64,000 nt of DNA, from the NCBI GenBank assembly GCA_015143295.1, contig CM026554.1, positions 51,768,627 through 51,832,626 on the forward strand. Direction: 5' to 3'. The stretch is from Tetracentron sinense (lineage: Eukaryota; Streptophyta; Magnoliopsida; Trochodendrales; Trochodendraceae). Both the position numbers and the translations under genes were made by a program. The notes under the pieces were generated by a model. The model was given only the letters and a program-made list of their open reading frames with translations. It ran no database searches and was not told the DNA's origin. This document shows, in pieces, positions 38,020 to 64,000 of the stretch (the first letter of the stretch is position 1; each line of letters begins with the position of its first letter).

Positions 38020-38055
<36 letters not shown>

Positions 38056-41154: not shown

Positions 41155-41785
41155 TGTTCAAACCTTGAAAACAAAATAAAAAAAAGTACAAGTTACAATT
41201 TAATGTGCATATATAAAATGTGCATGAATATGACAAACCATATAATCTCATTCTCAACTTCTATAGATATAATTGTAGCAGATAAAATTCATAGAATGGA
41301 AGGAAGATCCTGCATATTCATTCACCACAAATACTATCAAACACAGCTCAAGAGGTAAATGGCAAAAAAAGAGAGGAAAATTTGAGCATGATTCATGAAT
41401 TCACAAAAATGAGCATATGTAATGATATAACACCACAAATTCCCTTTCAATGTACACAAACAAGTGTATAAAATAAAACTACTGGATCGTGCATCTATGG
41501 CCACTCATATGGTTATATGAATGTTTTTATGCATGCCTAGAACAAACTCGGACAAATATACCACAGTATCATGGATCTCTAATAAAAGAACAACGGATAT
41601 GCACATCACATCCGAGTAGCATACTCTATTTTGTTGGAATTCCTCCAAGAAACATAAATACTCAAGACTACATAGTATGATATAACATAACTTAAAATCA
41701 GGTATTGCAGCTGTAATGGAAGAATATCTTTCAGAAAAGGGGGAAAATGGTCAGCTTCTTTTTCCCTTCATTGTTGTCTGATCCT

Positions 41786-42390
41786 AAGTAACCAAAGCGG
41801 GAGTGAGAGTGGGGAGTGAAAGCACGGGAGCGTCAAATTTTAATTTAGGATAGGGTTGAGAGCGCTTCCAGAGCGCCCATATATATATATATAGAGCCAA
41901 ATTTTAATTTAGGATAGGGTCGAGAGCGCCGAAATATATATATATGAAATAAATTAATTAAATCCAATTAATTAATAAAATATATATAGAGGATAAATTT
42001 TCTTTATTTATTTTTAATGTATTAATTAAAAAAAATAGATCCCACTTTACCTGCAACCCACGCTCTCACTATTATCTAATATTTACTTATATGACGATAA
42101 AAGAGTAAATACGTAAAAATAAAAGTAAATGAATTGAAAAAAAAAAAAGTTGGAAAGACTTATTCGGATTACACACTTCTCTTACCTTGTCACTATTAAC
42201 CCTTACCTTGTCACTATCAACCCTCTTTAAGAGTGGAATATAACGAAAACAGCCTTTTTGAAAGCAAAACCGCCTTGAAACCAAAATCGGTGCTCCACAA
42301 AATCTGAAACCGTGCTCCAACGGCGAATCCGCTTCAAACCGTGAGAGCGGGAGCGGCAGGGTATTCCCACAGTTTGGGTTACTAAGGTCT
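41786..42390. mobile_element. Insertion of about 600 bp private to duplication copy 1
   Basis: Copy 2 runs straight from 'ttgtctgacc' to 'tgatacacagctgac' (57,105-57,130), whereas copy 1 has about 600 extra bases here. The insert starts gtaaccaaagcggg and ends with the inverted tttgggttac, flanked by TAA on both sides. This suggests a PIF/Harbinger-like element. Inside it is AT-rich with a tandem 'attttaatttaggatagggt' repeat (41,838 and 41,901). Confidence 0.55.
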
Positions 42391-43340
42391 GACCCTTGAT
42401 ACACAGCTGACTTACTTCATAAACATTGAAGAAATGTAACATAAGCATGCCTAGGAACACGCAACCTTAAACCACCATTGTATGGTAAAAAAAATTTCTA
42501 AAAAGAAATAACCAACATGTAAAAAATAAGAAGAGCAAATCAAAGTAGAAGGGAATGGGGTGGATTGGGATGAGGTAGGCCGTGGGGACAACAGAACCTT
42601 CAGTGGATTAAACCCTTACTTATAGTTAGCTACTGATTCCTAGAAAAGCACGAACTGTTTTGGGAAAATAAAATAATTCTCATGAACATAATATCAGATT
42701 AAAGTCACAATCCATCTTCACTCAGTACAACCCCAAGAAAATCAGCATCTACCATCCCTTTCCCCGAAAAAAGAAAAAGAAAAAGGAAAGTGTAAACTTT
42801 CAAAAACCCTTTGATGTGAAGTACTAGTCGCAAAAAACACACATATACTTTCCTTCAACCAAACATCTAGTCATCTAGATTACAGGAACTAAAACAGCTT
42901 GAAAAAAACTTGAAGAAAATGAAATTACACATGGACAGAGACGATCGAACTTTAAGAAATTGAGACACCGTTTAACTTCAACATCATCACTATCAACCAA
43001 CAGCACTACTAGGTATCTATTTTTCTTTTTCTTTTTTTTCTTAATTTTTTTTAGCGGTAATCAGGATCTCATTAAACTTAGCAATATTACAAAAGAAATC
43101 AGGTATCTAACAGAGAAGAGAAATGAATAGAATTATAACATTTACATACACGATCGATCTCTAACCAAATCAAACCCTAGAAATTATAGTCGTCTTCAGA
43201 AGAGATTTAAGCAGAGTAGAAAATCTACGAAGAGAGATGAAACACAAATACCCCGATACTTGAAGAAAACAAGAAGAATCAGAAACTAGAAAAATGAAAT
43301 CTAGGGTTAGGGTTTTTCGACACTTACACTTGAAGAGTAC

Positions 43341-43440
43341 CTTCGTGAGCTTCGTCCAGTACTTCTTATTCTCCCCCCGAGACGAAAACCCCTATTTGAG
43401 AGAGAGGGTTTACGAATTGACGGGTGGGCTATTTACCAAT
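43341..43440 (-). promoter_or_regulatory. Leader exon and promoter-proximal region of the RNA-binding protein gene
   Basis: On the minus strand 'gctcacgaag' ends at 43,341 at a GT donor (gtactc). No ATG precedes it, so this is a probable non-coding first exon, joined to the ATG exon across a 2.2-kb intron. Just inside the intron (43,300-43,318) are telo-box-like aaccctaaccctag words. Upstream is a CT-rich tract (ccctctctctc) but no TATA box, a common layout for such genes. The segment is conserved in copy 2 at about 58,050-58,150. Confidence 0.5.
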
Positions 43441-43637
43441 GTTTGAAAAATGAACATCGTCCGTCCGATTTCATTTAGAGTGATCGAGATTCGAGAACCA
43501 TTGTATTCGGGTCGGGTCGGGTCGGGTCGTTTTGTCTAAAGTTAGAATTACCCTAGCCTAGCCTCATAAATCCAACCCGTTTAAAAATAAGATAGAAAAG
43601 AGAATCATGACCCAACAATACACCTAAACCCCCCGGT

Positions 43638-43790
43638 GTAGCCCGTGGCCGAACGACGATCTGTTAACCCCGGAGGTCTTGAAGTCGATTCCTCATCTCT
43701 CCTCAATGTCGGTTGTATGGAGTGGGGGCATTTCCTACGTAACACATGAGACTAATATAAGTCTTTAAGGAGGTGATATCCACATTTATT
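43638..43790 (+). mobile_element. tRNA-derived SINE-like element
   Basis: Starts tagcccgtggccgaac (A-box-like) and contains gaggtcttgaagtcgattcc (B-box-like, cf. GGTTCGANNCC) about 40 bp later. It is absent at the paralogous site in copy 2. The 3' end is not well defined. Confidence 0.5.
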
Positions 43791-44062
43791 GGATTTGGTC
43801 CGCCCTGGCCAGACCAAAACCGTTGGTCGACTCACAAAGTCCCTTTAAATGTTCTTTTAACCCAGGTTATGAAATTTAAACTCCCGTAGTATAGTTTTTT
43901 TTAATATTTTTTTTCTAAAAACCAAGGTTACACAGTTGAACTCTAAAGGTTAGTGAACCTTAATCACAATTAAGGGGTGTCAAGAAGGAGACTTGTTGAC
44001 CTGTGGGGTGGAATCCGGACAAATTTTGTCTGGCAAGGCTAGACAAAATCCATTCCCATCTA
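43790..44062. mobile_element. Foldback MITE
   Basis: The left end ggatttggtccgccctggcc recurs inverted at the right end (aaggctagacaaaatccatt). The arms share the gttaa / ggtgtcaa / gttgacc core of the elements at 24.2 and 49.6 kb. It is absent from duplication copy 2. Target-site duplication was not resolved. Confidence 0.5.
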
Positions 44063-44314
44063 AACCCTAGCCGAATCAGTGTAAACTAAATAAATACAAA
44101 TTAAATATTTAACAAATCATTTATTAATTAAGTAAATAAATAAATTATATTTTATAGATAAATGTATTTTTATTAATATTTTAAATTATAATAATAATTG
44201 AATTTAAAACTAATATTTAATAGAGTCTTAATATCATATATCCCCTTTCCTATTGAACTGATTGCAGTTTTGTAATTTTGAGAAAACAAAAACAACCACT
44301 ATCTTTCTCCCATA

Positions 44315-44710
44315 GGGTGTGTTCGGTTGAGGGGTAAATGGGTGGGAGAAAGTAAAGTGAAGTGAAGTAAAGTAAAGTGAAAGAATTGTATAAATTCTCT
44401 TGTGTGTTTGGTTTGAGAGAAAAGTTTAGGGGAAAGTATAAATTTTTCTAAAATTACCCTTTTCTCTCTTTAGGAATAGGGTTCAACAAAAGGATAGATT
44501 TGGAATTAAAAGTTTTTACTTTACTTTCTTTCACAATTTCAGCTTTTTGGTGGAATAAGGTTTGGGTGAAAGTGAGAGAAAGTTATACACTATTGAGAAA
44601 GTTCAAGTTTTACTTTACCTCAAAATCCCTCAAACCGAACAGGGTGAAAGTGGGAGAACACACCCACTTTCACCCACTTTCTTTCGCATTCCCCTCAACC
44701 GAACACACCC
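44315..44710. mobile_element. MITE with GGGTGTGTTCGG termini, 396 bp
   Basis: Terminal inverted repeats gggtgtgttcggttgagggg / cccctcaaccgaacacaccc are perfect over 20 bp and flanked by ATA on both sides. The paralogous site in copy 2 (near 58,800) reads through without it, giving an empty site. Confidence 0.85.
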
Positions 44711-44972
44711 ATAATTACATAAACTTTTAGAACATTGCATTTTTTTTTTTCGAAATCGGAGTTTTCATTTAACAAACTACAAAATAACCAATAATTAGAG
44801 TTATCATAAACTTCTAGAACTTTACATTGAAATGGTGAGCTGGTCCGCTTCACGTGTGGAAGCTGAGCTCAGAGTCTCGAACTCATATTTAAACACTATT
44901 TAATAAATATATTGTGTACATTAATGTAGGTGTAATAGCGATATACATAACGTATCACATGTTCCTTCAACC

Positions 44973-45369
44973 TAGGGCTATCAATGGATCGGATCATGAT
45001 CCGATCCGATTAGCCGGACTTTGGACCCTATATGTGATCCGCCGGATCGGATTTGGATCGGATCGGTGGAATCCGATTATAATCGGATCGGATCTGGATA
45101 TAGGGTGATCCGATCTTATTATAATAAATTTTTTAAATCATTTTAAATATATTACTTAGATTTTCTATGTATAAAATATTAATTTTAAAAAAATTAACAT
45201 TAATTAGAGTTAATTAAGGTATTATTAGATTTTATATTATTAAAATAGATTTTTTTTAAAAAAAAATTAACCTTATTCGGATCAGATCGGATTGGATCAG
45301 TTTCGGATCAGACAAAATGTAATCGGATCGGATTCGGATCGGTCCGAATCCGACCCGTTGACAGCCTTA
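44973..45369. mobile_element. hAT-like MITE, 397 bp, 8-bp target duplication CTTCAACC
   Basis: Ends tagggctatcaatgg and (inverted) taaggctgtcaacgg; exact 8-bp flanks cttcaacc at 44965-44972 and 45370-45377. The interior is rich in repeated cggatcggat words in both orientations. It is absent from duplication copy 2. Confidence 0.85.
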
Positions 45370-45379
45370 CTTCAACCCT

Positions 45380-48300
45380 AATCGGCTAGCTTTAATCCCG
45401 ATAGTTAATGTTGACCTAAGTTTTTAGAAAACCCTTTAAAAAATTTAGCAAATAAAGGCCTTTTATTTGGACGACAAACACATGACTTGATGATGTGAAA
45501 AGGGAGAGATATCCTAGAAAATAAGGAATGCTTTATCAAATGTTAGTTTAGAATTATTCAACCTCCAATTTTTTGTGAACTTTTTTTGTTCATTTTATAA
45601 ATTATTAGTTACGTATTGCTTATTAGATTATTTTTGAATGAGGAACCTGTGAAGAAAAACATAGATGCTTTAGTAAGGGGCGTTTGACAATATTATTAAT
45701 TAGTTTGTTTGGTAAAATTAAATAAGTAAAAGTGATTTAGACCATTGCCAAAAACAAGTTTCCTAATAGGTACTTGTTTAAAAAAATACTTATAAATAAG
45801 CTCAAACATCTCTTTTTGTGAGACATTTTTGTCCCTATTTTTTATCATAAACTTTCAAAATAACCCTCGTCTAGCTCATACCGACCATAATAAAAACATA
45901 TCCATACTTACCCTTGAAAAAATAACTTATTTATTTGAGTTACCAAATGAACTTTTTGTAAAAAACAGAAGACTTATTTTAAAAAGAATTTAGTTGTAAA
46001 AGCACTTATTAGCTTATAGTAGTATTTGCAAATGCTCACCGTGTTTCCCTTGCTTAATTCGAAACAAGGGCCGCAAGAAAACGAGGAATATTTGTATACA
46101 CTTTTCTCAGATACTAAAAATATTTGCGTTCTTGATGTAGCCCAAGATTTGGAAGCCTACATTTTGAGATGTATTATGTTATGTGGGAGTGAGAAATATG
46201 ATATTAAGACCCATGATCTATTTAACCATGACCTATCACCCATGTTTTAACTATCCATTTAATCAATCCATAAATCATTCAACAAGTCATGGACTTTCCA
46301 TCTTTACATTAATGTTACCTAGTGTTTAGTTATAGAAAATGATGTTTTCCCATATATTAGTTGTAGTGAGTGAGGTTATTTAATGAGTTTAATGTTTTCC
46401 CATAATAGTGAGTTTTGTAGTAATTTTGCATGTGAGATCTTGTTCTTTATATATCCTTTAGAAATGAAATGAAAAGTAGCCCATTTTGAATGAATATATG
46501 ATATTATAAGCTTGTTAACTTATTTTAAATTTAGTTATTCTCTTGAGATAACTTGCTAAATTTGGGTATTGAGGAGTCCACCTTACTGAATTTGGGTCGT
46601 TTTTACACTCTAAAAAGATTAAGTCTTTCGTGATTTTCCTTCAAATTATTTGAATCCTCAACCAGATATTTCAATTGTTATTGTAATAATTACATACTAT
46701 AATAAAGCATAATGAATTTCATTAGTAAGTTAAGTCATTAAATTTAGGTTTCAACATATTTATGGTCTAACACTTCCAGTCAAAAACCTTATTTGTGAGC
46801 AAAACCGACCTAACTTGCATCGACCCAAGTTGAGCCTACAATTGAGAAATGAATCATTGGGTTACACTATTCCTGATTATTTTGTCCTTATCTCATTTAT
46901 AGAAAATAAATCAAATCCTAAATCCATATTTATTGTTCTGGTACTCAATCGAATTGTAATATCATAATAATAGGTGAAATTAGACAACTTTTGTTTTGAT
47001 ATTCTTTATAAGACTCCACAAGTCTAAGTGACAGAATTTGGTTTCCAAATGTGTTATCATTTCCAAATTATCTTTATTCCTCGCTGTATTTCATAATAAA
47101 ATAGAAATGTTTTATCATTTCTTTCTTTCAATTTTTATAATAAAATTATCGGACATTATCTAAACTCAAATATTTTAATCGGAGTTAGAAACGAATAATC
47201 TATTTCATTATCCATCAAATATTTAATCAAATTCCGACAACCTACCTATTAAAATATACAAACCACTATCCACTTTTAATTCGCTCGTTTACGCTCTATG
47301 CACTACTATTGAGAGTTTTTCTACACAAACGTAGTCTAGAAGCAAGGATATGACATTAGAATTCAAGTTTAGCATGTCCAGAATCCAGATGCAACTTCAT
47401 TTGATTGCTTGTGTGGTGAATGGTGGATGAAGAATGCTAGCCACTGAGGTGTTGGCATTGACAGGCCCTGTTCCCGGCTGTTCGTGATGCACTCAATTCA
47501 GAAAATTTCCCTGTATCTTGGAAAACATCATGCAGAAATAGTGATTAGTTTGCTGTTGGAAAAATGGTTGTTAGTACAGATGCCATTTCATAGGATCAAA
47601 CTTCATTCTGGATCAAAATTTATTGTAGACCTTCAGAAAGTTGGCTGTTAAGCTGTTAGAATCATACTACTAGATTTTTATTAATGTCAGAAGTGGCGCA
47701 TTGTTTACATGACTTGGGATGATGAAATTGTGCGCCGAATTGACAATGAACCATATTTGTGACTAGAGCCTAGAGGCCCCGGAAAACCTGTACTCGCACA
47801 TCATTCCTCCCACTAAGCCCCCATTTGTTTGCCACTTTGCTCAGGTCCTTATTTCCTCAAAAATGTAGGGGATGGTCCGGCACGTTGCAATAATTGTCAT
47901 TTGACAATATATATTTTCTTTTGAGAATTAGATGCATCTTGCTTTTCATCTATTAAATTACAATTCTAATCTATTAAATTACAATTCTCGTCAGACTTCA
48001 AAGGCAACAAAATGAATAATTTCAAATCTCATAAAAACGATAAAAACGATAAGACTTGAAATCTCATGACACTAAGAATTACTTTTGTTAGAAACCTTGA
48101 CAAAGTGACTCAAATTTCCTAACAACTACCATGATACGTGTAGAGTGCAAAGATTTACAAGCCTCAACAAACAGACCCTAAGCACAATATTACAAGCACG
48201 GGTGCAATTGATCATTGCCCACCAGCATCCACACATATAGGAGATTACCTGGGACAAAGTTCAATGCCAATTGATGATTGAAACATTCAATTCTATATAT

Positions 48301-49115
48301 TCCTTTTATCATTCTACTGTTCTGGTCTTCTCAACTATCCAAATGATTGGAACATATTAAATGGTGAGATCATAAAACACCACTGATCAATTTTTGATAT
48401 ACACAAACATAGATTTTACTCTTTTGATCGCATTTGGTAGAATTTAGGAGTAGCTCTAATAGTTGACAAAATAAGAGAAAATTGATTGAATGGTTTGAAC
48501 AAGTCCAGCCAAGACCAATAACATTTGCAAGTGAAAAAATGATTGAATTGATGTAAGTTCAAGGTTCTAAAAGAGTCAAAGAAAGCCACAAACTATTTGA
48601 ACAGAGACAGTAAGGAAGATTTAATCCCACACGATTGACCAAAGCTTCGGCTTTTAACATAACAAAATGACTGAACAAGATTAGTGTTTCAGAACAGAAG
48701 TATTTGGGTAAGTCACATCACGCTGGCTTGTTCAGGATTTTCTCTCCATCTTGGAATTCTGTTCCAATAACATGTGATCGTAATTATCAAGTACATTACT
48801 AGTCATATGAAATAGTAAATACATTCAGATTGTCCCACCAATGCAGGTAATATGGCTCCCAAATATACTGCGATAATAATAACAATAAGGTAAATATTTT
48901 CAAGACCTAAACCTAAATAACAAAAACCAATTATATCCTTTCCCAACATGGAGAGAGCACAACAGAACAACTCAAAATTTACTTAAGCACAGAGATAACA
49001 CAAACAAATTATTTGATGTTGAGAACTAACCCAATTCAAACGAACAAAAAAAATCCAAACTTACAGCATAGAAAGTAGAGATACAACATCCCCAAGAAAG
49101 CTTCTAAGTACAAGC
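45380..49115. other. Intergenic region, duplicated at 59.6-64.0 kb
   Basis: AT-rich non-coding DNA between the RNA-binding protein promoter and the aldolase 3' end. No open frame here has recognisable content. Blocks around 46,030-46,130 and 47,330-47,700 are well preserved in the second copy without a coding pattern that I can see. Confidence 0.5.
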
Positions 49116-50926
49116 TCAGTTTTGTACATCAATTCTTCTGTGTCTAAGAATCTTGATTCCTAAGTAGTCGACAGGGCCATGAACAGCAACATGAGGTTTC
49201 CCAACCTTCACACGGATAGCAGATATCTGAGGGAACTTGGTTAGGGTGGTGGATGCAATGAGATGAGCCACGGACTCAAGGAAATTCTGAGGGGGTCCCT
49301 CCAAGACTTCTCTGACTATGCTGCCACTCCACCAAAGCGAAGTGTGTTGGAAGGTACAAATACACAGAGACCATGAATGTATTGATTAAATAAAAAAATT
49401 GAAAAACCATGCATGTATATACACAAAAAACACCACCTACAAACACCATACATGAGACTTCTACTGTTCTACATACAAAAGTATGTGCACGATATATATA
49501 TTAAAAAACAATTGTTACACATTCAAATGGAGGAAAGATGAATGTGGTCTGCCCAGACGTTAAAAAAAAACTATAGGTTATCAATGCTAATCTCGCCCCC
49601 TTTTTCTCGCCAAGTGTCCCTTTTAACTGTGGTTAATACTTTTAACCATATTTATTTTTCTCAAATCCAAAGTTAAAAATATGAATTTTAAGGTTAGTGA
49701 ATCTTAACCACAGTTAAAGGGAGTTTAAAAGGGGACACATGGCGAGAAAAAGCGGGCAAGACGCCATCCTTGGGGCACCCCGCGACGATGGGATTATTTT
49801 CCATTTCTAATTAGGCATGGATTTGTAACTACACATATCACATACATTTACTTTGATATTGACGGGCTCAAGTGGTCAGCATCAATCCTGTTTTTTTCTC
49901 CTTTTTCCAATGGATAACCTGATGAAACCCCATGCCCATGGCTACAGTGCAGAACATTGCATAATTGTAGAGCTACAGGATCAATCCCGAGTAATCTTCT
50001 TCACCTCTTTCCTAAAGGTGTTCCTATGTTCTATGTGAGAAAAAACAGTAGTGATGCCTTTACAAGTCTTACTAGGTAGAATCCATAACATATAGAGCTG
50101 TTTCTAAGTGGGAAGTTTCATAAAAGACATTGCTTAGGAACAACGGAAGTTGGAGAACTCTAATAAACTAAGGATGGACCTTTTTGGAATCAATGATGAA
50201 TAGATCACTTTTCCCTCTTCACGGACATTTTCCTTCTGTTCTTAAATGAATTGCCCAAGTGGACATAGAAAATCCTATATTTAATACACAAAAGTATAAA
50301 TATATATTCAACCTATAGCATTGATAGATTAAATTATGACATATAAGGAAAAATATAGAGAGAGTATCCTTCGTATCAAGGGCAAAGTCGATTTTAAGTG
50401 TCTTGACTGGGTATCCACCAATATAGATTCAGCTTAGCTAGATCTCTAAACCTTGAGGATGGTTAGGCTTGCACTATTTTTCTCGGTAAGCAAATAATCA
50501 ATCACCATTCTTAGATAAACTAACCGGATTTTTGAACTATTATCTAAAAGAGCTAATAATCAATCATGCATAGAGAACTAAGCAAAATGTTTGTACTTTC
50601 TAGTGAACCACCATATGGATTTTTAAAAGCCAAAGCATTTATGGGTAATCTCTACCTTCTGTAACAATAGTAAAATAGTCTGCTTCTAGTATTATAAGAG
50701 CAATGAAGAAAATTCAAGTTATTACTCACTGATAAATTTCAGTATAACTGATAGTGTCGGACAAGTTATCAGATTTACCGGCGGCACGGAGATCTAACCA
50801 GGCATCTACATCTACCAAGAACTTCTTACCCAACTTTCTCTCTTCTGGTTTCACCCGATGAGAAACATGGAACTTCAATCCTCTCAAAATGAGTTTGTCT
50901 CCCTTTATAATGTGATCATCATTCAT
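49116..50926 (-). CDS. FOLB: Dihydroneopterin aldolase (folate biosynthesis)
   Basis: Cytosolic enzyme that cleaves 7,8-dihydroneopterin to 6-hydroxymethyl-7,8-dihydropterin and glycolaldehyde. Minus-strand exons: 50926-50730 and 49320-49116, split inside the codon after EIY, giving 133 residues, the normal length for plant FolB. Recognisable segments: GDKLILRGLKF, KPEERKLGKKFLVDVDAW, SDNLSDTISYTEIY, LEGPPQNFLESVAHLIAS, VRVKVGKPHVAV and DYLGIKILR. The Glu of KPEE, the Tyr of SYTEIY and the Lys of GKPHV are present at the usual active-site positions. Odd: the conserved GFHG-type stretch after LKF reads HVSHRV. Start is the first ATG after a probable leader-intron acceptor (ttaattcag) 9 bases upstream. 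The 1.4-kb intron holds a MITE, and a pectinesterase inverted repeat begins about 43 bp upstream of the start codon. Confidence 0.9.
49585..49768. mobile_element. Foldback MITE in the aldolase intron
   Basis: Left-arm words (ctcgccaagtgtccc, aactgtggttaa) recur inverted on the right (ttaaccacagtt, ggggacacatggcgag). About 180 bp in total, no coding capacity. It shares the GGGACAC(A/G)TG...TTAACC layout of the elements at 24.2 and 43.8 kb. Confidence 0.6.
50505..50566. repeat. Outer inverted-repeat block, left copy (aldolase intron)
   Basis: The reverse complement of 53,675-53,734 matches this block with about three differences over 60 bases (for example ccattcttagataaacta and gaactattatctaaaagagc). 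It lies outside the pectinesterase arms at nearly mirror-image distance from the centre. Confidence 0.85.
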
Positions 50927-50969
50927 TGATACACCTGAATTAAGGCACTAATTGCATTAGGCGAAAACT

Positions 50970-52027
50970 TGTATTTGCACTTTTGTGGAGTATCCAAGGT
51001 TGTTTCATGCTTCAATTTGACGTGATTGTGGCTCAAGATGGATAAGAGAATTTCACTACAATTTTTGATGCCGTATCAACCGCTCCTAACAATGGCTAAC
51101 ATTGATACTACATACAGATTAGAACTGAAGTCTATTGCGAGAGAGTATTAATTACAAACCAGAAGACTAATGTTGCACTAATTGGTGATGACATGGAAAA
51201 AGGCAGTCATCATAGGGAAAAGAAGTGTTTGCGGAGGGTCCACTACCTACAAATCAACAACTGACAGTAATTCTCAACTTACTTCCAAATTAGGTCTAAT
51301 CTTATAGATGCTTATGATTCTTTAATAATGAGTACATATTTTCAAAATAATAATAATATTCAATAAACAACTAAATTATTTTTTCTTTCTGAATAGGCAT
51401 GTTCGGGGATGGTTTCATTGCAAGAGATATTACATTCCAAAATACAGCTAGAGCTAATATGATGCAGGCGGTTGAGCGAATCAAACTACTCGGCCTACTA
51501 CAGATGCAGCTTCCTAGGGTATCAGGACACTCTCTATGCTAAACAAAGCACATAATTCTATAGAGAATGCGAAATCTATGGTACAATGGATTTCATTTTT
51601 GGGGATGTACTAACAGTTTTACAAAATTGCAATATCTAAACCCACAAACCCCTTTCAGGTTAGACAAACATGATAAATGCCCAAGGAAAAAAATTCCCTC
51701 TTGATGTAAGTGCAATCGGCATGCACAATCATGGCGACTGAATCTTCAAAATTCAACAATTAAAACATACCTCGGCAGACAATGGAGAAAATACTCCACA
51801 ACGATAATAATGCAATCGCAACTAGGTAATCTTATTAACCCTAAGGATTGGAGCAAATGGGAAAAAAGTACACCTAACCTTGACACCATTTATTAGGCTG
51901 AGTACCAGAATAGAAGACCTGGTGCTGACACAAAAGACAGAGTCACCTGACAATGATATAAAGTGATAACCAGCTCTACTAAAGCTGTCTAGTTTACAGT
52001 AATAAATTTAATCCATGACGACACATG
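50970..52027 (+). pseudogene. Pectin methylesterase pseudogene, left arm
   Basis: Plus-strand reading gives decayed but ordered PME catalytic-domain motifs: VAQDG...NFTTI.DAVSTAPNN near 51,030-51,090; an AT-rich intron ending ctgaatag near 51,396; GDGFIARDITFQNTA from 51,405; YQDTLY at 51,520-51,537; ECEIYGTMDFIFGD near 51,570-51,610; TYLGRQWRKYS from 51,766; AEYQNRRPGADTKDRVT near 51,900-51,950. Stops and frameshifts break the frame, so no functional enzyme is expected. Intact PMEs de-esterify cell-wall pectin. Confidence 0.85.
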
Positions 52028-52059
52028 AATACCAACAACAGTAACATAAGGCTGTGATC

Positions 52060-53125
52060 CATGTGTCACCGTGTATGAACTTTCTTACTGTAAACTAGGC
52101 AACTTCAGAAAAGTTGATTATCACTTTATATCCTTACTAGTTGACTCTGTCTTTTGTGTCCACATCGGATCCTCTATTCTGGTACTCAGAATAATAGAGG
52201 GTCTCAAGGCTAGATGTGCTTCATTCTCATTCGCTCCAGCCCTTGAGGTAAATAAGACTACCTAGTTGTGATTACATTATTACCATCCTGAAGTATTTTC
52301 TTCATGGTCAACCGAAATATGTTTTAATTATTGAATTTTGAAGATCTAAAGCCGCTGATACAATTGTGCATGACGATTGTACTTGCATCAATAGTGGATT
52401 CTCTTTTTTGGGCAGTTATCATGTTTGTCTGCCCTGGAAGGGGTTTGTAAGCGTAGATATTACAGTTCTCTAAAACTATTGATACATCCACAAAAATGAA
52501 ATCCACCGTAACATATATTTCGCATTCTCTATAACATTGCGTGCCTTTTTTAGCATAAAGGATATCCTGATACCCTAGGAAGCTACATCTATACTAAGTC
52601 GAGTAGTTTGATTCGCTCATTAGCGCAACCGTTGCATCATATTAGCCCCAGTTGTATTTTGAAATGTTATAACCTTTACAATGAAGTCATCCCCAGATAT
52701 GCTTATTAAGAAAAAAAATGCAATTTTGTTGTTTATTGAATATTATTATTATTTTAAAAATATTTACTCACTATTAAGGTATCATAAACATTTATAGGAC
52801 TATACCTAATTTGGAAGTAAACTGACTTACTGGTAGTAATTGATTTGTAGGTAGTAGACCCTCCAAGAACACTTATATTTCTTTGTAATGACTTTCTTTC
52901 TCATGTCATCACAAATTAGTACATCATTGATCTTTTGGTTTACAATTAATATTCTCTCGTCAGACTCCGACTCAAATCTGTATGTAGTACCGTTGTGAGT
53001 CATGGTTAAGAGCGGTTGATACGACATCAGAAATTGTAATGAAATTTTCTAATCTATCTTGAACCATAATCACGTCAAATGAAAGCACGAAACAACCTTG
53101 GATACTCCACAAAGTGCAAATACAA
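52060..53125 (-). pseudogene. Pectin methylesterase pseudogene, right arm
   Basis: Minus-strand reading shows the same motif order from 53,125 leftward: a decayed NFITISDVVSTALN; an AT-rich intron; FIVKVITFQNTTGANMM; YQDILY (52,555-52,572); ECEIYVTVDFIFVDVSIV; LPGQTNMITAQKRES; AEYQNRGSDVDTKDRVN. It is frameshifted and interrupted by stops. It lies tail-to-tail with the left arm. Confidence 0.85.
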
Positions 53126-53415
53126 TGGTAAGAATGGGCATTGTCTTCTCTTGCAACAACGCAAGTTCTTAGTCTCTGCTTTCTCTAGAATAGTACCCTC
53201 AACCTGTACAATATAAATCACAAGAATAAGTATCTATCTTTCGAGTAGTACAATTCGTCAACCGAATTAGTTTAAGAGTAAAACAGAACATGGAAACCAT
53301 ATAAAAAAGCATGCCTCACAGACAGCAAGAAAAATAAAAAAGTTAACAGGTTCATATCAAGAATCAAATTTTAAAAAAGAGGCTAATAGATTAAGAGCAA
53401 TACATAAAACTATAT

Positions 53416-53673
53416 GATGGAACATGGCCGAGCACCCTGATGCAACATGACCGAGAGCCGAACACCCTGATGCAATATGACCGAGAGCTTGATGCAACAT
53501 TGCTGAGCACCTTGATGCAATATGGCCGACTACCTTGATGCAACACCGTCGAGCACCCTGATGCAACATAGTTGAGCACCCTAAAGCAACATGGTCGTGC
53601 ACCCTGATGAAACATGGCAGAGCACCAAGATGCAACATGGCCAAGCTCCCTGAAGCTACATGGCCGAGAGCTT
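53416..53673 (-). repeat. 23-bp minisatellite, about 11 units
   Basis: Degenerate tandem units of gatgcaacatggccgagcac plus cct (23 bp; one unit of 30 bp). Unit length is not a multiple of three, so the open frames across it are incidental. It sits between the right pectinesterase arm and the outer inverted-repeat block. Confidence 0.9.
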
Positions 53674-53674
53674 G

Positions 53675-53734
53675 TTTGATTATTAGCTCTTTTAGATAAT
53701 AGTTCAAAAATTCGATTAGTTTATCTAAGAATGG
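53675..53734. repeat. Outer inverted-repeat block, right copy
   Basis: Inverted match to 50,505-50,566 in the aldolase intron, with about three differences in 60 bases, so better preserved by eye than the pectinesterase arms. It directly abuts the minisatellite. Confidence 0.85.
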
Positions 53735-54144
53735 AAACCTTATATGTGAGCCTTCACACCCTCTATCAGGGCCAAGGCTCCAATTGAGCACCTTGATAGA
53801 ACAGACCTTGTCCAGCATTGAATGGCTTGATAATTTGCATAATGCATCACATCAACATGATTGCACGTGTGAATGCATTTACATTTCATGACAAGTTGAA
53901 GTTTCAATTGGTTGTAGCGTTAATACTTAATACCAATACTGTTATAAGTGGAGAACTGAAGTAAACGTAAATTCTGGAATTTATGAAGTAAATGTACATT
54001 CTGAAACTTATGATAATTTCAAGATTTATGTATGTGAAAATATATCATGTAACTGCTCAATAGACTACCTTGTTTGTACAGAATTTCATTTCCATTACAA
54101 CTGAAGATATGTAATATTATTCATTACAAATTATTAAGTTAGAC

Positions 54145-54559
54145 CAAGGTTTTAAATTTCGTGAAATTTCGGTTTCGGACAACCCCACCGACATCAAAAC
54201 TGGGTTTATTTCGAAAATCAGATTTCGACCGAATGTTTGAAAATTTCGGGTGAAATTTTGGATTTCGAAGATTTTGGAATTTCGGCCGAAATCTTTTTTT
54301 TTTTTTTTAAATAGTTTTTTTCCTTGTTTTTTTTATTAAAATTCCAAAACATTTCGAAATTTTTACTGAAATTTTGAAAATTTATATAAATATATAAAAA
54401 TTTAATAAATTATTATTATTTTTAATATATATATATATATAATTAATAAAATATTAATATTTCGAATTTCAAAATTTCGCCGAAATCCCGCAATATTTCG
54501 GGATTTCGGTTCGGGTTAGCTGGCCGAAACCGTCAAGAATTTCGAAATTAAAAACCTTG
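54145..54559. mobile_element. hAT-like MITE, 415 bp, 8-bp target duplication AGTTAGAC
   Basis: Ends caaggttttaaatttcg and (inverted) caaggtttttaatttcg; exact 8-bp flanks agttagac at 54137-54144 and 54560-54567. The interior is built of repeated 'atttcgg' words. No coding capacity. Confidence 0.9.
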
Positions 54560-54605
54560 AGTTAGACAGCTAATCATACTCATGTAAGATCAGGAAGAAA
54601 TGGTA

Positions 54606-55045
54606 TACGGCTCGTTTAGGGCTTAGTTTGGCTTGAGCTCGGCTCAAAATAACATGTATATAAACAATATTTTTTTATAATATTATTTATATTGATATAA
54701 AATAATATTTGTAACTTTATTTATCATATACTGTAATAATTTTTAATTTATTATATATAATTTTAAGAGATAATAATAATAATTAAAGTTAAGAAGTCAA
54801 AATCAGAAAGTCAGATCTAACTCTCTACTCTTTGGGCTGAAAGACTACCCCAAAATCTTTTTTTTTTGTATGAATGTATTTACTTTTTATAATTTCTTGT
54901 ATTATAAATGATCAATAATCCTTTTATTAAAATCATGTAAAATAAAATAAAATAATTTCATGAATCAAACTTGAGCCAACCCAAGCTCACCTCGGCTTGA
55001 ATAAAGTTCGAGCTCGAACATAGCTCGAGCTCGATCAAACCAAGC
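54606..55045. repeat. Probable MITE with GAGCTCG-rich ends
   Basis: The left end (cttgagctcggctcaaaat) and right end (ttgagccaacccaagctc, then cgagctcgaac repeats) form an imperfect inverted repeat around an AT-rich core. Boundaries and target duplication are unresolved. Confidence 0.45.
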
Positions 55046-55261
55046 TCAAGGCAATTTCTAAGGAAGTGCAACATTTCACCATCACTTAATTCACCAGGCA
55101 AAAACCTAGGTGAGTAGTCATTTCAACATCTCGGCTCACAAGTTTTGACAATGGTAGTAAGAATATTACTTACTATGTGAAAGCGCCATTGACTGAAGCA
55201 TAAATTCACATTTCGCTCCAGTAATTTGCTTAGGGCAGTAAAAAGAAGATAAGGTTTGATC

Positions 55262-55375
55262 AGGGTGCTCTGTCATGTTGCATCAGGGTCTCGACCATGT
55301 TGTATCAGGGTGATCGGCCATGTTGCCTCAGGGTGCTCGGCAATGTTGCATCAAGGTGCTCGGCAATGTTGCATC
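55262..55375 (+). repeat. 23-bp minisatellite, about 5 units, opposite orientation
   Basis: Units of agggtgctcggccatgttgc plus atc are the reverse complement of the minisatellite unit at 53.4-53.7 kb. A stray partial unit lies at about 55,455-55,475. Confidence 0.9.
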
Positions 55376-55604
55376 ATGCTCTCAATTGGAAATTACAAGG
55401 GCTATAAATCACATCAAGTTATGACTTCCTTAGGAAGTACATCTACTAGTGATTCAGGCCATATTGCATCAGGCTTCTAAGAACCATAAGAAATATAGTT
55501 TACTAAAAAAGAGTTTGTCAGCATCCTTTTTTTGATCGATAAACAAGTGAATTGCATACATAGAAAGAATGTACAACATAATACAACTAAGACAAACTCC
55601 AGGA

Positions 55605-58150
55605 CCGCACTGGTTTGGCACCCTAATTAAGGCACTAAACCAGTTCAATCCTGGTTTGGCATGCAGTCTGGTAGCAAAAGCTCTTCAGTAAAGGCTACAA
55701 CTGCCATTTTATATTTACTATCCAACATCTGTAATTCTGTATCTAATACGAATTTGCAATTCATAATGGGCGATCTGCATTGCATGTTGGAAACATTAGC
55801 ACAACCATACACATACAATTCCATTTTTTTTTCACGCAAATATTTGTAAAGCGGGGGAATTGTAGCCCCTACTGGCACAACTAGTCTTAGCCACACTACC
55901 ATGCTGACACAAGACCATTAGAGGTGTTTCCATAATTCACACAGGCTCTGTTTATTTCATCTGAATGTACTCCGGAAAATAAAATACTCAAGCCAGAACT
56001 GTTTTGTTTCTGCAGAAAGCTTCTACTTTCCATTAGTTTTCTGATTTTTGTTTCATCAGAATACACATTGTCTAGTTTCCAGCCATAAAACTCAAAAATA
56101 TAGGTGCTCATCGTTCATTGGTGGGAGGTGAACCTTATGATAATGAAGATAAAGAAGAACCTGGATACAGAAGTATATACTTTAGGTCAACAATGTTTGT
56201 TTCATCAGAATACACATTTTCTAGTTTCCAGCCATAAAACTCAAAACATTTCATACTTCTAACCAGAGTTATTCTTATCTCTGCACACAAAGACTGTGAG
56301 AGGGAGATTTAAGAGAGATTTGAGGAAATTATATGGGCAAGTGCTTGAGAGAGAGAGAGAGAGAGGACCTTACCCAATTTAACTGTTGGTTCAACAAACA
56401 CAGAGAAGGCAATGGCAATCAGTTATGGAAACGTTGAACGGTGCTCGACTACAAAGAAAGCTAGGCAGCAATAATGGGGGGAAAGACTTCATGGGAAGGT
56501 ATAGGGCATTTAGAGATCGAGAGAGACAGATTGGGATTCTACGGAGATTTACAGAAAGAGAGTGGTTTTTAGAAATTTGCAGATGAGGAAGAGTAATTGG
56601 AGTCTCTTGCTCTTCAAAGGAAATTTATGCTCAAATTAATCAGGATATTTTTCCTCCAAGCCACAGGAGGGTTTTAGGAAGAATTTCTGGCAGAAAACAT
56701 GCCTCTAGTGTGCCAAATGAGTGTGAAAAGATTTTATTACCATAAATTTTTCTTTATTTACAGTTAAAACAAGCATGGGATGCATTATTATCAGAACTTC
56801 TAGTGGCCGTTTCAGCACAAAGACACAAATGATAAGGCTGTCTATCATCTCTCGTTAATAGTTAATACATTTGCATCAATCAGCACCATTTTCTATGTTA
56901 TGCGGACAGGACACCTCAGTAGATTGTTATCCATTTCCATGGCCACCATTCAAAGTATCAGACTCTAGTTTGTTGGAATTCCTCCAAGAAACATAAACAC
57001 CCAAGACTACTATAGTATGATATAACATAGCTTAAATTATTGCAACTGTACTGTAAGAATATCTTCCAGAAAATGGGGAAAATAATCAGCTTCTTCTTCC
57101 CTTCACTGTTGTCTGACCTATGATACACAGCTGACTTACTTCATAAACCTTAAAGAAATGCAACATAAGCATGCCTAGGAACACGCAACCTTAACCCATC
57201 ATTTGTATGGTTACAAATATATCTAAAAGAAATACCCACCAACAGGTGAAAAAAAAGGAAGATCAAATCAAAATAGAAGGGAATGGGGTGTGGAGTGGGA
57301 TAAGGTAGGCCGTGGAGGCCACAGAAACTTCAGTGTATTAAACCCTTACTTCTAGTTAGCTACTGATTCGTAGAAAAGCATGAACTATCTTGGCTAAAAA
57401 AATAATAATTCTTATGAACATAATATCAGATTAAACATAATCCATCTTCACTCAATACAACCCAAGAACATCAGCATCAACCATCCCTTTCCCCGGAAAA
57501 AAAAAAATTTGAGTGTAAACTTTCAAAAACCATTTGATGTGAAGTATTAGTCGCAGAAACACGCATATACTTTCCTTCAACTAAACATCTAGATTACAGG
57601 AACTAAAACAGCTTGAAGAAAATGAAATTAAACATGGACAGAGACGATCAAGCTTTAAGAAATTGATACACCGTTTAACTTCAACATCATCACCATCAAA
57701 AAACAGCAGTACTAGGTATCTATTTTTCTTTTTCTTTTTTTTCCTTAATTTTTTTTTTTAAATCAATAATCAGGATTTCAAAATTTTAGCAAGATCACAT
57801 AAGAAATTAGGTATCTATTTAACAGAGAAGAGAAATGAATAGAACTATAACATTTACATACACGATCGATCTCTAAGCAAATCAAACCCTAGAAATTAAA
57901 GTCGTCTTCAGAAGAGATTAAGCAGAGTAGCATAATCTACAAAGCGAGATGAAAAACAAAAGACCACGATACTTGAAGAAAACAATAAGAATCAGAAACT
58001 AGAAAAGTGAAATCTAGGGTTATGGTTTTTCGACACTTGAAGAGTACCTTCGTGAGCTTCGTCCAGTACTTCTTTTCTCCCCCCCGATACTAAAACCCCT
58101 ATTTGAGAGAGAGGGTTTACGAATTGACGGGTGGGCTATTTACCAATGTT
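55605..58150 (-). pseudogene. Duplicate of the RNA-binding protein gene without coding exons
   Basis: This part matches intron 3, the leader intron, leader exon and promoter-proximal DNA of the 36.2-43.4 kb gene. The three exons encoding presequence and RRM fall in the 3.1-kb gap, and the Gly-rich exon lies outside the duplicated segment. What remains could be transcribed from the retained promoter (about 58,050-58,200, minus strand) but cannot encode the protein. Confidence 0.75.
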
Positions 58151-58361
58151 TGAAAAATGAACATCGTCCGTCCGATTTCATTTGGAGTGATCGAGATTCG
58201 AGAGCCATTGTATTCGGGTCGGGTCGTTTGTGTATTTTATAAATACCCTCGCCTCGTAAATCCAAACATGACCCAACATGAGACCCCTATTCTAAACCCA
58301 CCAGCCAAATCAGTGTAAAATAAATAAATACAAATTAAATAATTTACAAATCATTGATTAA

Positions 58362-58580
58362 AGAATTAGTTTAGAGATACTCCTAAGGTGTACTCTCAAA
58401 CATACTCTCAAATCCTAACCGTTCATCTCAGTTGTTAAATGGTTATGATTAAAGTTGACGTGGCATTAGAAAAGACAAAATAAGTTAACTCAAATCCTGA
58501 CCTTTAGTGATTGGTTATAAACGGTTAGAATTAGGGAACTAATTTGGGAGTATATTTGAGAGTACCTATAGACTGACTCA
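58362..58580. mobile_element. Foldback element, copy 2 only
   Basis: Inverted words (gtgtactctcaaacatactc ... gagtatatttgagagtac; cctaaccgtt ... aacggttag) and 7-bp flanks tgattaa at 58355-58361 and 58581-58587. The paralogous stretch near 44,120 lacks it. Same family as 60,555-60,765. Confidence 0.6.
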
Positions 58581-59158
58581 TGATTAAATAAGTAAATATA
58601 CTTATTTTGTATATTTAATAGATAAATGTATAATTTGATAAATATTTTAAATTATAATAATAATTAAACTTAAAACTAATATTTAATAGAGTCTTAATAT
58701 GACCCAAAGCTTTGTTTCACTGCATTGAAGCGGATCTCCTCTTTTCTATTGAAATGATTGTCATTATGTAATTATGAAAAAACAAAATTATATTTTTTCC
58801 CATAGTTGCAAAACTGCATGGCCGGCCTACATTAAGCCATCAAAGTCTTTACTTTAGGTCCCATTAAAAAAAATAAAATTAAAAAGGCCTCATTTAGAAT
58901 ATTTTTAAAAAATAAAAGGCCTATTTACAATATTAAAAATGTCTCATTTATAGTTAATTTTTTTTAATAATATTAAAAAATAAAAAACCTCATTTAAAAT
59001 TTTTGTTTTAGGCCTGCAAATGGCTTGGGCCGCCCCAAAACTGCTACTAAACATTGCATTGAAATGGGGAGCTTTGCTTCGTGCGTGGAAGCAAAGCTCT
59101 TGTTTTATTAAAACACTATTTAATAAATATATTATGTATAGGTTATAAACGGTTATGA

Positions 59159-59334
59159 TGGCCAGGACCACGCCTCACGAAGCGGAGGTCCTGAGTTCGA
59201 TTCCCTACTCTCGTTGGCCACCCTCCGGATTTATCCCGACTTTCCTGGTGCGTGTGGAGAGAGGGCTCTGCACATGCCCGGGGGAACTAGTCGGGTGCTC
59301 TAAGAGGCGCAGATACCCTCGTCACCAAAGAAAA
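59159..59334 (+). mobile_element. tRNA-derived SINE, copy A
   Basis: Starts tggccaggaccacgcctc and has a B-box gagttcgattcc at about 59,191-59,203. The body ends with an A-rich 3' part (ccaaagaaaag). Shares its whole length with the element at 59,668-59,848. Absent from copy 1. Confidence 0.7.
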
Positions 59335-59667
59335 GTGCTATACATATGGGAAGTGATCGGAAACTCTCCATAGGTACTATCGAGAGCTAAGACACTTGAT
59401 TCACAAACTAATTGACCTAAGCATTAAGGTAGCGCATTCCATGCATGTGTGCGTGTGGATGGTTGGATTTAAAATTTAACGGCACAGCTCTCGAGTCTCG
59501 ATAGTATGTACTATTAAGAGTTTTTAATAATTTTCCTATACATATTATAACCCTAATTGGTCAGCTTGCCCAACCTAGGTTTTTAGAGGCCTTTTATATG
59601 GACGACAGACACGTGGCGTCATGGGCGAGAGATATTATTTGGCAACTTTTAGGCGAGGGGTTGGGTT

Positions 59668-59848
59668 AGTGGCCAAGACCACGCCTCAAAAAGCAGAGGT
59701 CTTGAGTTCAAGTTCCTTCCCTTGTTGGCCACCCTTTGTGATTTATCCCGATTTTCCTGATTGTGTAGTATAAGAGGATTTGCATAGCCTGAGGGACTTA
59801 GTCAGGTGCTCTAAGAGACCCGGATACCTTCGTTCAAAAAAAAAAAAG
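59668..59848 (+). mobile_element. tRNA-derived SINE, copy B
   Basis: Same family as 59,159-59,334 (gtggccaagaccacgcctca, then gaggtcttgagttcaagttc) with an A12 tail near 59,836-59,847. It is missing at the paralogous site near 45,515 in copy 1. Confidence 0.75.
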
Positions 59849-60554
59849 AATTGCTATACAAAATAAGGAATGTTTTATCAAGTGCTAGTTTAGAAATTAT
59901 TCGACCTCTATTTTTTTTGTGAACTTCAATTTTGTTCATTTTACAATTTATTAGTTAGGTATTGTTTATTAAATTATTTCAGAATCGAGAAACCAGTGAA
60001 GAAAAACATAGATGCTTGAGTATGGGGTGTTTGGCAACACAACTAATAGGTACTTAATTAACGTATTAAGTTTGTTTGGTCAAATTATAATTGTAATCAG
60101 TAAAAGTGATTAAGACCCTTAAAACAAGTATCCAAATAGGTAATTGTTTGCAAATTTACTTATAAATAAAGTCCATTTTGGAAACATCGTTAGGATCAAC
60201 TTTCAAATCATCTACTTGGAAGAAAGTTGTGAAAGAGTTACCTTCAAACTAGGTTGAAATATGATCAACAACAGCTAAAAAATCACTGGGACATAATTAG
60301 TGTTGCAAACAGTCCAGTGATTAATTCGAAACAAAGGTTGCAATATGCCTTTCTTGGATACTAAAAATGTTTGCATTCTGTTTATTGTTTTTAGATTGAA
60401 TGAGGATTCAAATGAATATTTTGTTTAGATACCAACATTTTTTTAGAATTCATTGTAATTGTGCTAAATATTTTGGTTGTTATTGTAATAATTACACACT
60501 ATAATAAGGTTTAGTGATTTTCTTTAGTTAAGGGTAGTGTATCCCCTGCTTTGG

Positions 60555-60765
60555 GGGGAGGTACCAGGTTCCAAAGTGTACTCCCATATATACTCCCTAA
60601 TCCTAACTGTTTTTCTCAATTATTAAACGGTTAGGATTCCAACTGATGTGGCAATAGAAAAGACAAAATAAACCAACTAAAATCTTGGCCCTTACTGGTT
60701 GGTTATAAACGGTTAGGATTAGGGAGTATATTTGAGAGTATAATTGGGAGTACCCATAGACGGAC
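60555..60765. mobile_element. Foldback element, second family member in copy 2
   Basis: Inverted words (gtgtactcccatatatactc, aatcctaactg ... ggttaggatt, gagtataattgggagtac) match the element at 58,362-58,580. The paralogous stretch near 46,840 lacks it. Ends are approximate. Confidence 0.55.
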
Positions 60766-61345
60766 TCGGTTGGGTATACTGTCTTTATCTCATTCATAAA
60801 GAATAAATCAAATCATGAATCCATATTTATTGTTTTGGTACTCAATCGGATTGTAATTTCTTAATAATAGGTAGAAATTAGATAACTTTTGTTTTGATAT
60901 TCTATATAAGACTCCACAAGTCTAAGTGGCAGAATTTGGTTTCTAGAAATGTTTTTTCATTTGCGTTCCGGTCCTAGTTGTATCTGGCAAATTTGAATTT
61001 GAGGAGAAAATTATCTTTATTCCCCGACATATTTCATATATTATTAGGCTTACCTTGGGTTGAAAGTAGGGCCTAGGTATGTCATGTTCATGATGTTCTG
61101 TTCCTGGAGTTGGCTTAGGTTGGCCCCTAACCCAACTCGCTCAAGTTGCACATGTCTGCTCCTCTCGTTTTGGATATTAGCCTACCCATTGAGTAGGGGT
61201 GTCAATGGATACAAATTTAATTGCTCAAATAATTATCCCAATAGGTATCCAATGGGGTGAACTCAAATAACACTATTATTATCCATTTATAATCGGATAT
61301 ACATTTGGATATCGATATATCCGATTCGATAAATATCGGATGGAT

Positions 61346-61372
<27 letters not shown>
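61346..61372 (+). repeat. (AT)n microsatellite
   Basis: AT run of about 27 bp inside a hAT-like (ggggtgtcaatgg) repeat remnant that begins near 61,195. Confidence 0.9.
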
Positions 61373-61377
<5 letters not shown>

Positions 61378-61692
61378 TATATAATTTTGTAAATTTACAA
61401 CACTAAAATACCCTCATTAATATGTATTTTTTACATTATTTTTAAAACATTAAATTGTTATTTTCAATATAAATGGGGATATAATATTGATTTATTATTT
61501 TTTAAATAAAATTATATTATTTGCATTTGCTTTAGCATTTTTCCGTCTTCAAGTTTTTTTAAAAATAAAATTATCGAAACTCGAATATTTTAATCAAGGT
61601 CGGATACGAATAATCAATTTCATTATCCATAAATATTTAATCAAATCTAGATAGCCTACCAATTTGGATATACCAACCACTATCCACTTCGA

Positions 61693-61771
61693 ACTGCCAC
61701 TCGGACTCGAACCGAGATGCTCTGGCACTGCTTCCTGAGAGCAGCGTGTCTACCGATTTCACCATGACGAC
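61693..61771 (-). pseudogene. trnL-UAG: Plastid tRNA-Leu(UAG) relic
   Basis: Minus-strand features are those of plastid trnL(UAG): atggtgaaatcggtagacac, the long variable arm, and the T-arm word cggttcgagtccgagtgg. The anticodon loop reads ctcagga, so the anticodon is CAG rather than UAG. The acceptor stem (GTCGTCA / TGGCAGT) has at least one mismatch and two wobble pairs. Not expected to work as a tRNA. Confidence 0.85.
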
Positions 61772-61930
61772 TTACTCGAAATCATAATAGCCCATCCATA
61801 TTCAATCGTCGAGATTGAAGGAGTCAATTCAATGCAATATTTTTTAGGAACCATTCGAATCAATGAATAAAAACTTATTCAAATTACTATTGGAATGTCC
61901 AAGAATCCTAGTATAGAATGGTGTCCTCGT
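61693..61930 (-). other. Nuclear plastid-DNA insertion (NUPT) around trnL
   Basis: The block of about 240 bp is absent from copy 1, which reads straight from 'aaccactatccactt' to 'tcgtttacgctct' near 47,265-47,300. It contains a plastid-type trnL(UAG) relic followed by sequence consistent with its 5' plastid flank. The exact right end is uncertain. Confidence 0.65.
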
Positions 61931-63363
61931 TTACAGCTCTACTATTGAGAGTGTTTCTACAGTGTCTAGATGCAAGGATATGACATTAGAAATCAAGTGT
62001 AGCATGTCCAGATGCAACTTCATTTCACTGCTTGTTTGGTGAATGATAGATGAAGAATGCTAACCACTGAGGTGTTGGCATTGGCAGGCCCTGTTCCCGG
62101 CTGTTCGCGATGCACTCATTTCGGAAAATTCCCCTGTATCTTGGAAAACATCATGCAGAAACAGTGACTAGTTTGCTGTTGGAAAAATGGTTGTTAGTAC
62201 AGATGCCATTTCATAGTATCAAACTTCATTCTGGATCAAAATTTATTGTAGACCTTCAAATAGCTGGCTATTGAGCTGTTAGGATCATACTGCTATTTTT
62301 TTTTGGTTACTTCACGCCTAATGTCGAATGTGGCGCATTGTTTGCATGACTTAGGATGATGAAAATGTGCGCCAAATTGAAAATGTACCATGTTTGTGAC
62401 TAGAGGCCCGGAAAACCTGTACTCTTATATCAATCCACCAACTAGGCCCCCATCTGTTCGCCACTTTGCTCAACTCCTAATTTCCTCCCTAATGTTGGGG
62501 ATGGGAATGCTCTGTTCTATAAGGGCTGGCTCTTTTGCTGAGACTTGTAAAGTCCAGCACGTTGCAAGTCTTGTCATTTGATAATATATATTTTCTTTTG
62601 AGAACTAGGTGCATAGTGTTTTTCATCTCGATATAATTCCCGTCAGATTTCAAATGCAGTAAAATGAATGATTTCAAATCTCATAAAAAACTATGACTTG
62701 AAATCTCATGATGACAATAATTACATTTGTTAGAAACATTGACAAAGTGACTCAAATTTCCCAACTACTACCACAACAAAAGTGTAAGGTGCAAAGATTT
62801 ACAAGTCTCAGCAAAAGAACGGACCCTAAGCACAGCATCACAAGAGCGAGTGCAATGGATCATTGCCCACCAGCATCCAGTGAAACACATATAGGAGATT
62901 AAATGGGACAAAGTTCAATGCCAATTGATGATTGAAACCATTCAATTCTATATATTCCTTTTATCATTTTACTGCTCTGATCTTCTCAACCGTCCAAATG
63001 ATTGAAACATAGTAGATGGTTGACAGTTGAGATATACAATTTCATTGATCAATTCTTGTTATAAACGATCACAAATTTCACCCTTTTGAGCGCATTTAGG
63101 AATAGCTCTAATAGTTGATAAAATAAGAGAAAGTTGATTAAATGGTTTGAAGAAGTCCAGCCAAGACCAATAACATTTGGAAGTGAAAAAAATTACAGAA
63201 TTGATTTAAGTTGAAAATTCTAAAAGAGTCCAAGAATGCCACAAACTACGTAGATGGAGACAGTAAAGAAGATTTAATCCCACATGATTCACCAAAGTTT
63301 CGGCTTTTAACAGAACAAAATGACTAAACAAGATTAGTGTTCCAGAACACAAGTATTTGGGTA

Positions 63364-63758: not shown

Positions 63759-64000
63759 ATTTGGGTAAGGCACATGACCCTGGCTTGTTCAGGATTTGCT
63801 ATCCATCTTGGAATTCTGTTCCAATAACATGTGATCGTAATTATAAAGTACATTACTAGTCATATGAAATAGTAAATACATTCAGATTGTCCCACCAATG
63901 CAGTTAATATGGCACCCAAATATACTGCGATAATAATAATAATTTACAAAAAGGTAAATATTTTCAAGGCCTAAACCTAAATAACAAAAAATAATTATAT

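Follow-up and report, generated by a model that had tools for sequence, protein, structure and literature searches.

Does a kilobase-scale inverted pair of pectin methylesterase (PME) sequences mark a young locus for small RNAs directed against the genes it was copied from, or is it what remains of a gene that had died before it was rearranged? The question is raised by a locus in the window C4:51768627-51832626, that is, the whole stretch of 64,000 bases analysed here, taken from a genome of 1.16 Gb in 1479 contigs. Positions without a contig name are those of the window.

Geometry and parentage of the inverted pair

The initial annotation described two inverted arms of about 1.06 kb separated by a short gap, and this is borne out by local alignment, which places the left arm (L) at 50969-52030 (1062 bases) and the right arm (R) at 53125-52057 (1069 bases). 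The alignment comprises 1075 columns with 862 matches and 19 gap columns in 10 gap events, equivalent to 81.6% identity over 1056 ungapped columns, and its score of 638.5, where 100 shuffles reach no more than 28, confirms the inverted pair as real and far beyond chance. The centre of the pair, earlier given as 32 bases, measures 26 bases in the arm alignment (52031-52056), or 15 bases (52042-52056) if L is extended to 52041 according to its match with the gene on C12 described below. The PME origin proposed for both arms is upheld by a profile search, in which Pfam PF01095 (Pectinesterase) matches the forward strand at C4:51819645-51820645 in three pieces and the reverse strand at C4:51820691-51821264 in two pieces. 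The PME motifs ascribed to both arms are clean in the left arm but degenerate in the right, where the GRPW region contains stop codons at the equivalents of C12 codons 241 and 243.

The PME family is large in this genome (141 profile matches); together with introns and with dihydroneopterin aldolase and RRM exons it gives the gene content a plant character. The closest relative of the arms lies at C12:5252703-5253789 (77% identity). Its exons, at positions 5682-6000 and 6126-6821 of locus L027, encode an uninterrupted protein of 337 residues, whose start is hydrophobic and which lacks a PRO domain in that frame; Pectinesterase, at residues 25-322 (E 1.9e-129), is the sole family reported, and the best solved relatives are the pectinesterases 1xg2 and 1gq8, both of plant origin. 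PMEs of the C12 subfamily are also present as several copies on C20. Two of these relatives show no stop or frameshift against C12 within the compared stretch; the two TAA triplets in each of their profile-matched stretches presumably come from reading into the intron, because these stretches begin before exon 2.

Measured against C12, L (50969-52041, forward strand) extends from about codon 8 to about nine codons before the stop, with one intron, frameshifts and stops; its match begins only at 50969, leaving it without the start-codon and upstream part. R faces it on the reverse strand (52057-53125), again with one intron, frameshifts and stops, and this copy runs about 290 bases past 53125, through the start-codon region into upstream DNA. 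The continuation (53126-53415, reverse strand; 83% identical to C12) is absent from L, and R as a whole matches C12 over 52057-53415. That the intron is common to both arms, as first described, is seen in the arm alignment as well as in the comparison with C12. With the intron kept and the reading frame disabled on both sides, as in duplicated (non-processed) pseudogenes, both arms are by these features pseudogenes of a short PME gene with one intron.

Decay, age and rearrangement of the block

Tree calculation with IQ-TREE groups L and R as sisters with support of 100/100; because the input alignment was used in full, with parts outside the arms in which L has no homology, the branch length of L is inflated. 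In the C12 frame each arm carries 11 stops (12 were counted for L, one of them past the end of the arm). The stop at codon 312 is common to both arms as an identical triplet, codon 298 is a stop in both through different triplets, and each arm has private frameshifting indels. A 3-base gap is also common to L and R, which is weak evidence given that the C20 genes are gapped at the same place. On this evidence L and R go back to a single common ancestor, a relative of the intact C12 gene.

The differences between L and R are spread evenly over the three codon positions (57/64/62, p=0.79), unlike those between the intact relatives C12 and C20a (37/36/112), so that both arms have been free of coding constraint since they split, a loss to be looked for in a pair of pseudogenes. 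Private changes (84 in L and 96 in R) account for most of the 202 L-R differences and fall by codon position as 25/21/26 in L and 25/37/27 in R; on the stem common to both arms the figures are 16/13/18, against 7/7/24 on the C12 branch. Relative to the latter, the share of position-3 changes differs for the stem (Fisher p=0.030), for L (p=0.009) and for R (p=0.0008). The ancestor was thus probably non-coding already before the split, although with 47 coding changes behind the stem test there is room for a functional ancestor along part of the stem. Two PME genes that were both functional on becoming convergent, and died only afterwards, would suit a subfamily with several copies on C20, but the L-R differences without codon-position bias and the stop codon common to the arms render such a history very unlikely.

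The PME block (50940-55615) is flanked by two copies of a tandem duplication, both on the forward strand. Copy A (37309-50939), with a dihydroneopterin aldolase exon and an RRM exon on its reverse strand, ends 29 bases before arm L; copy B (55616-64000) extends 2002 bases beyond the end of the window, to 66002. A homologous stretch on C7 continues to match copy B for about 55 bases beyond the boundary of copy A with the PME block, which makes 50939 probably the new junction. The duplication covers approximately 10-14 kb; the RRM gene region is missing its 3' part in copy B, and in copy A the DNA that once lay upstream of the dihydroneopterin aldolase exon is probably gone. Copy B also contains a tRNA match (Rfam RF00005, 39 bits; 61692-61771, reverse strand), and elsewhere in the window a 125-base tandem repeat at 27065-27316, with two copies at 100%, is either very recent or an assembly artefact.

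The tandem copies provide a yardstick for the age of the pair. Over 6815 bases in 11 chosen collinear pieces, the DNA between the pieces being uncounted, they are 91.0% identical (K2P 0.097), whereas the arms differ by a K2P of 0.217 (0.231 on the five-sequence alignment). A locus at which arm divergence is about twice that of the neighbouring duplication, and at which both arms have been unconstrained since their split, lends no support to the description 'young' that it had received. We read the L and R copies as older than the tandem duplication and their layout as the product of later breakage, the present arrangement having arisen with the duplication or near to it in time; however, as K2P ranges from 0.062 to 0.208 by segment and coding parts are included, the order of events is uncertain. 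If the copies predate their present layout, the hairpin would never have been perfect.

The DNA to the right of the arms is consistent with such breakage. R is followed by a 23-base tandem array (53415-53674), whose repeat is dispersed through the genome (at least 175 matches), and by an inverted 65-base patch of the neighbouring tandem unit (53670-53734, reverse strand; like 50505-50569), and both sit between R and the 3' flank of the same PME gene. This flank (53793-54608, reverse strand) carries the last codons and the stop at its right end and is interrupted at 54144-54556; a more distal part of it (55082-55260, reverse strand) is 91% identical to C12. A second 23-base array, at 55254-55383, has the opposite orientation to the first, and both lie near break points. 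A search with 53675-54143 returned, besides itself, only C12, four C20 places of the PME subfamily and the 65-base tandem-copy piece. In each pairwise comparison among the patch and the two tandem copies, 4/65 bases differ. L ends at L027 base 6791 and the inverted flank piece starts at base 6792, with the stop codon inside the flank, so that one break separated them. Among the best candidates scored, MITE-like terminal inverted repeats carrying the PME sequence were not found: the 65-base piece otherwise has matches solely in the local pair of tandem copies and at the homologous C7 place (73%), on which ground we reject a transposon framing the pair with 65-base flanks (50505-50569 and 53670-53734).

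In the initial annotation the pair had been attributed to an inverted duplication at the DNA level. Copying at the DNA level stands, given the retained intron; a single step does not fit the break points or the patch, which suggest several rearrangements instead. Against a single fold-back event, which we consider less likely, stand the inverted position of the PME 3' flank to the right of both arms, with its exact boundary, and the apparent age of the patch, which matches that of the tandem duplication. As the route, an inversion of once-direct copies would fit, and so would template switching at a break. We consider it quite probable that the locus is a decaying PME pseudogene pair in a repeatedly rearranged block, most likely silent DNA. 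The ancestor would already have been a pseudogene when copied, and later breakage, perhaps together with the tandem duplication of the neighbouring DNA, would have flipped or template-switched the copies into their tail-to-tail layout, with one break inside the last exon of L. RNA running across the pair would form a long hairpin with about 18% mismatched positions, for which Dicer products are conceivable as a by-product of any transcription.

Folding, target sites and mutation spectrum

Arms too diverged to form a stable duplex would have told against a hairpin, and on prediction this is not the case. The minimum free energy predicted for the pair is -1160 kcal/mol in sense and -1264 in antisense orientation; 11 control pieces taken from the window give -435 to -562. 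Every one of the 904 pairs predicted in the sense fold connects one half with the other, the longest uninterrupted helix has 28 bp, and of 1054 windows of 21 nt, 939 have at least 16 paired bases and 187 at least 20. The pair is thus predicted to be a long inverted repeat able to fold, as a hairpin-siRNA locus would be. In that alternative DCL2/3/4 would dice the folded spanning transcript into siRNAs that direct methylation in cis or target the PMEs of C12 and C20 in trans. Given the strong predicted fold, a rice pair of 83% identity that makes small RNAs (PMC2708354) and mismatched or G:U-containing tobacco hairpins reported to induce RNAi (PMC9263138), hairpin siRNA from this locus is possible if it is transcribed.

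Candidate target sites were sought with 21-mers in 29 loci, flanks included, on both strands and with one shuffled-arm control, 18 further places and weaker PME matches being left out. Among these loci, 21-mers with no or one mismatch occur only at C12 (L027), C20 (L028-L031) and a C13 fragment (L033); those with exactly two mismatches reach further PME loci (five for L, four for R), with 1-4 per locus, and the control gave none at 0-2 mismatches. A perfect match to the C12 coding sequence is found for neither arm (L 0/1042, R 0/1049). L contributes 40/1042 21-mers with one mismatch to this sequence and 77 with two, R a single one with one mismatch, and 48/1042 of L lie within two mismatches of both R and C12. 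Perfect 21-mers are confined to the C12 intron, where R supplies 10, and to PME fragments on C20, where L supplies 6 for each of the two copies.

Selection for pairing has left no clear sign in the arms. Their longest identical run is 28 bases (p=0.32 against random placement), runs of at least 16 number 9 where 6.1 are expected (p=0.11), and the summed squared run lengths give p=0.06; these run-length tests detect neither a clear slowing of arm divergence, which further weighs against an siRNA locus, nor a locally conserved patch. The latter bears also on the suggestion of a proto-miRNA gene born from inverted duplication of its target. Gene-derived inverted arms with an intron would be suitable material, and adjacent inverted paralogous pseudogenes are described as a possible source of MIRNA genes (PMC3237417). 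However, the arms are long and diverged throughout, C12 offers no perfect target site in its coding sequence, and a scan of the window at gathering score matched no Rfam miRNA family and only the tRNA, new families being unlisted in Rfam, so that we regard this origin as highly improbable.

The C20 contig holds a second PME-derived inverted repeat of the same subfamily (L030 4860-5215 and 5250-5650; C20:2385.9-2386.6 kb), itself present in a further copy (L031 4725-5110 and 5150-5540; C20:2398.2-2399.0 kb). Its centre lies inside exon 2; the arms are about 75-78% identical, and the two copies 96-97% identical arm by arm. Comparison of the copies gives no support for pairing selection, with 26 of 340 columns changed in one arm and none in both; 13 of the 26 changes broke a match, 6 made one and 7 did neither. 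Sister status of these arms is likewise without support (L030 arm a against arm b 76.8%, arm a against C20a 75.3%).

The mutation spectrum is dominated by C>T/G>A, which outnumbers the reverse by 43:20 in L and 59:14 in R and affects 13-27% of sites in CG (5/19, 5/20), CHG and CHH contexts, compared with 2-5% of sites in the arms for A>G or T>C. Such dominance is usual in methylated silent plant DNA; as the arms show no CpG depletion (observed/expected ratio 0.46 in L, 0.67 in R, 0.47 in C12 and 0.48 in the window), the excess alone is no proof of methylation, and we do not claim methylation as its cause. On the forward strand G>A exceeds C>T (65 vs 37, p=0.007, uncorrected, several asymmetries having been looked at). 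An inverted pair serves as its own composition control for strand asymmetry (50969-53125). The G>A excess underlies the larger number of differences that could pair as G:U in reverse-strand RNA (84) than in forward-strand RNA (55). Together with the stronger antisense fold it hints weakly at processes acting on one strand, for example transcription, and we do not treat the asymmetry as evidence beyond that. Selection for antisense pairing should favour A>G on the reverse strand too, but the forward strand has 17 A>G and 17 T>C changes, a balance that points to mutation rather than selection as the cause. An siRNA locus is in our view unlikely, though its chance is not negligible.

A bolder variant holds that the pair is a hairpin-siRNA locus peculiar to this lineage and transcribed from the minus strand, which trims expression of the small PRO-less PME subfamily (C12, C20), and that inverted repeats formed repeatedly in this subfamily as self-made silencers, the two C20 copies being invoked for the repetition; we give it very little credence. 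Any regulatory function of the pair is unlikely and unproven, and the decaying pseudogene pair is the reading we retain.

Relation to known inverted repeats

The case illustrates how a striking palindrome of kilobase size can be given an age and examined for function on DNA evidence alone: spectra by codon position, trees of the sister arms and break points allow a fossil to be told from a young silencing locus. Should small RNAs be found, the pair would become a useful siRNA case, in which a hairpin with about 18% mismatched positions is set against a subfamily of cell-wall genes, with the C20 repeat as a replicate. Searched at the level of titles and abstract openings, the literature yielded no PME inverted-pseudogene hairpin.

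The rice pairs are alike in consisting of two paralogous pseudogenes in opposite orientation and close together. For the pair of 83% identity (PMC2708354, Table 3) small RNAs are mapped, and its stem of 185 bases encloses a loop of 1283 bases; here the stem is about 1060 bases and the loop 15-26. The soybean GmIRCHS repeat (I locus) likewise is an inverted repeat of a gene-derived pseudogene (pseudo-CHS), presented as a candidate for the silencing of seed-coat chalcone synthase (PMC13051633), whereas the arms here are far from identical. Both differ from the present pair, which is known from DNA alone. Tolerance of mismatches is illustrated by tobacco GUS hairpins built with 1 mismatch in 4 bases, since mismatched and G:U hairpins are reported to give uniform RNAi, and the G:U hairpins abundant siRNA (PMC9263138). 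Teosinte Pollen Drive (Tpd1) resembles our case in centring on a long non-coding hairpin; there 22-nt siRNA acts against Tdr1, while here the hairpin is a prediction from the genome sequence, and the example maize precursor in the same report, with near-complete reverse complementarity over 73 nt, is unlike the present arms (PMC11390486).

The inverted repeat PAI1-PAI4 of Arabidopsis is a further related system (PMC3203196). Its likeness to our pair lies in the tail-to-tail arrangement of gene copies. The PAI copies are generally described as near identical and transcribed, whereas the present arms are pseudogenes with 18% mismatches. Seen beside these systems, the inverted PME pair is most likely an ordinary though elaborate genomic fossil; its kind is known, and the chance that it serves in siRNA production is small.
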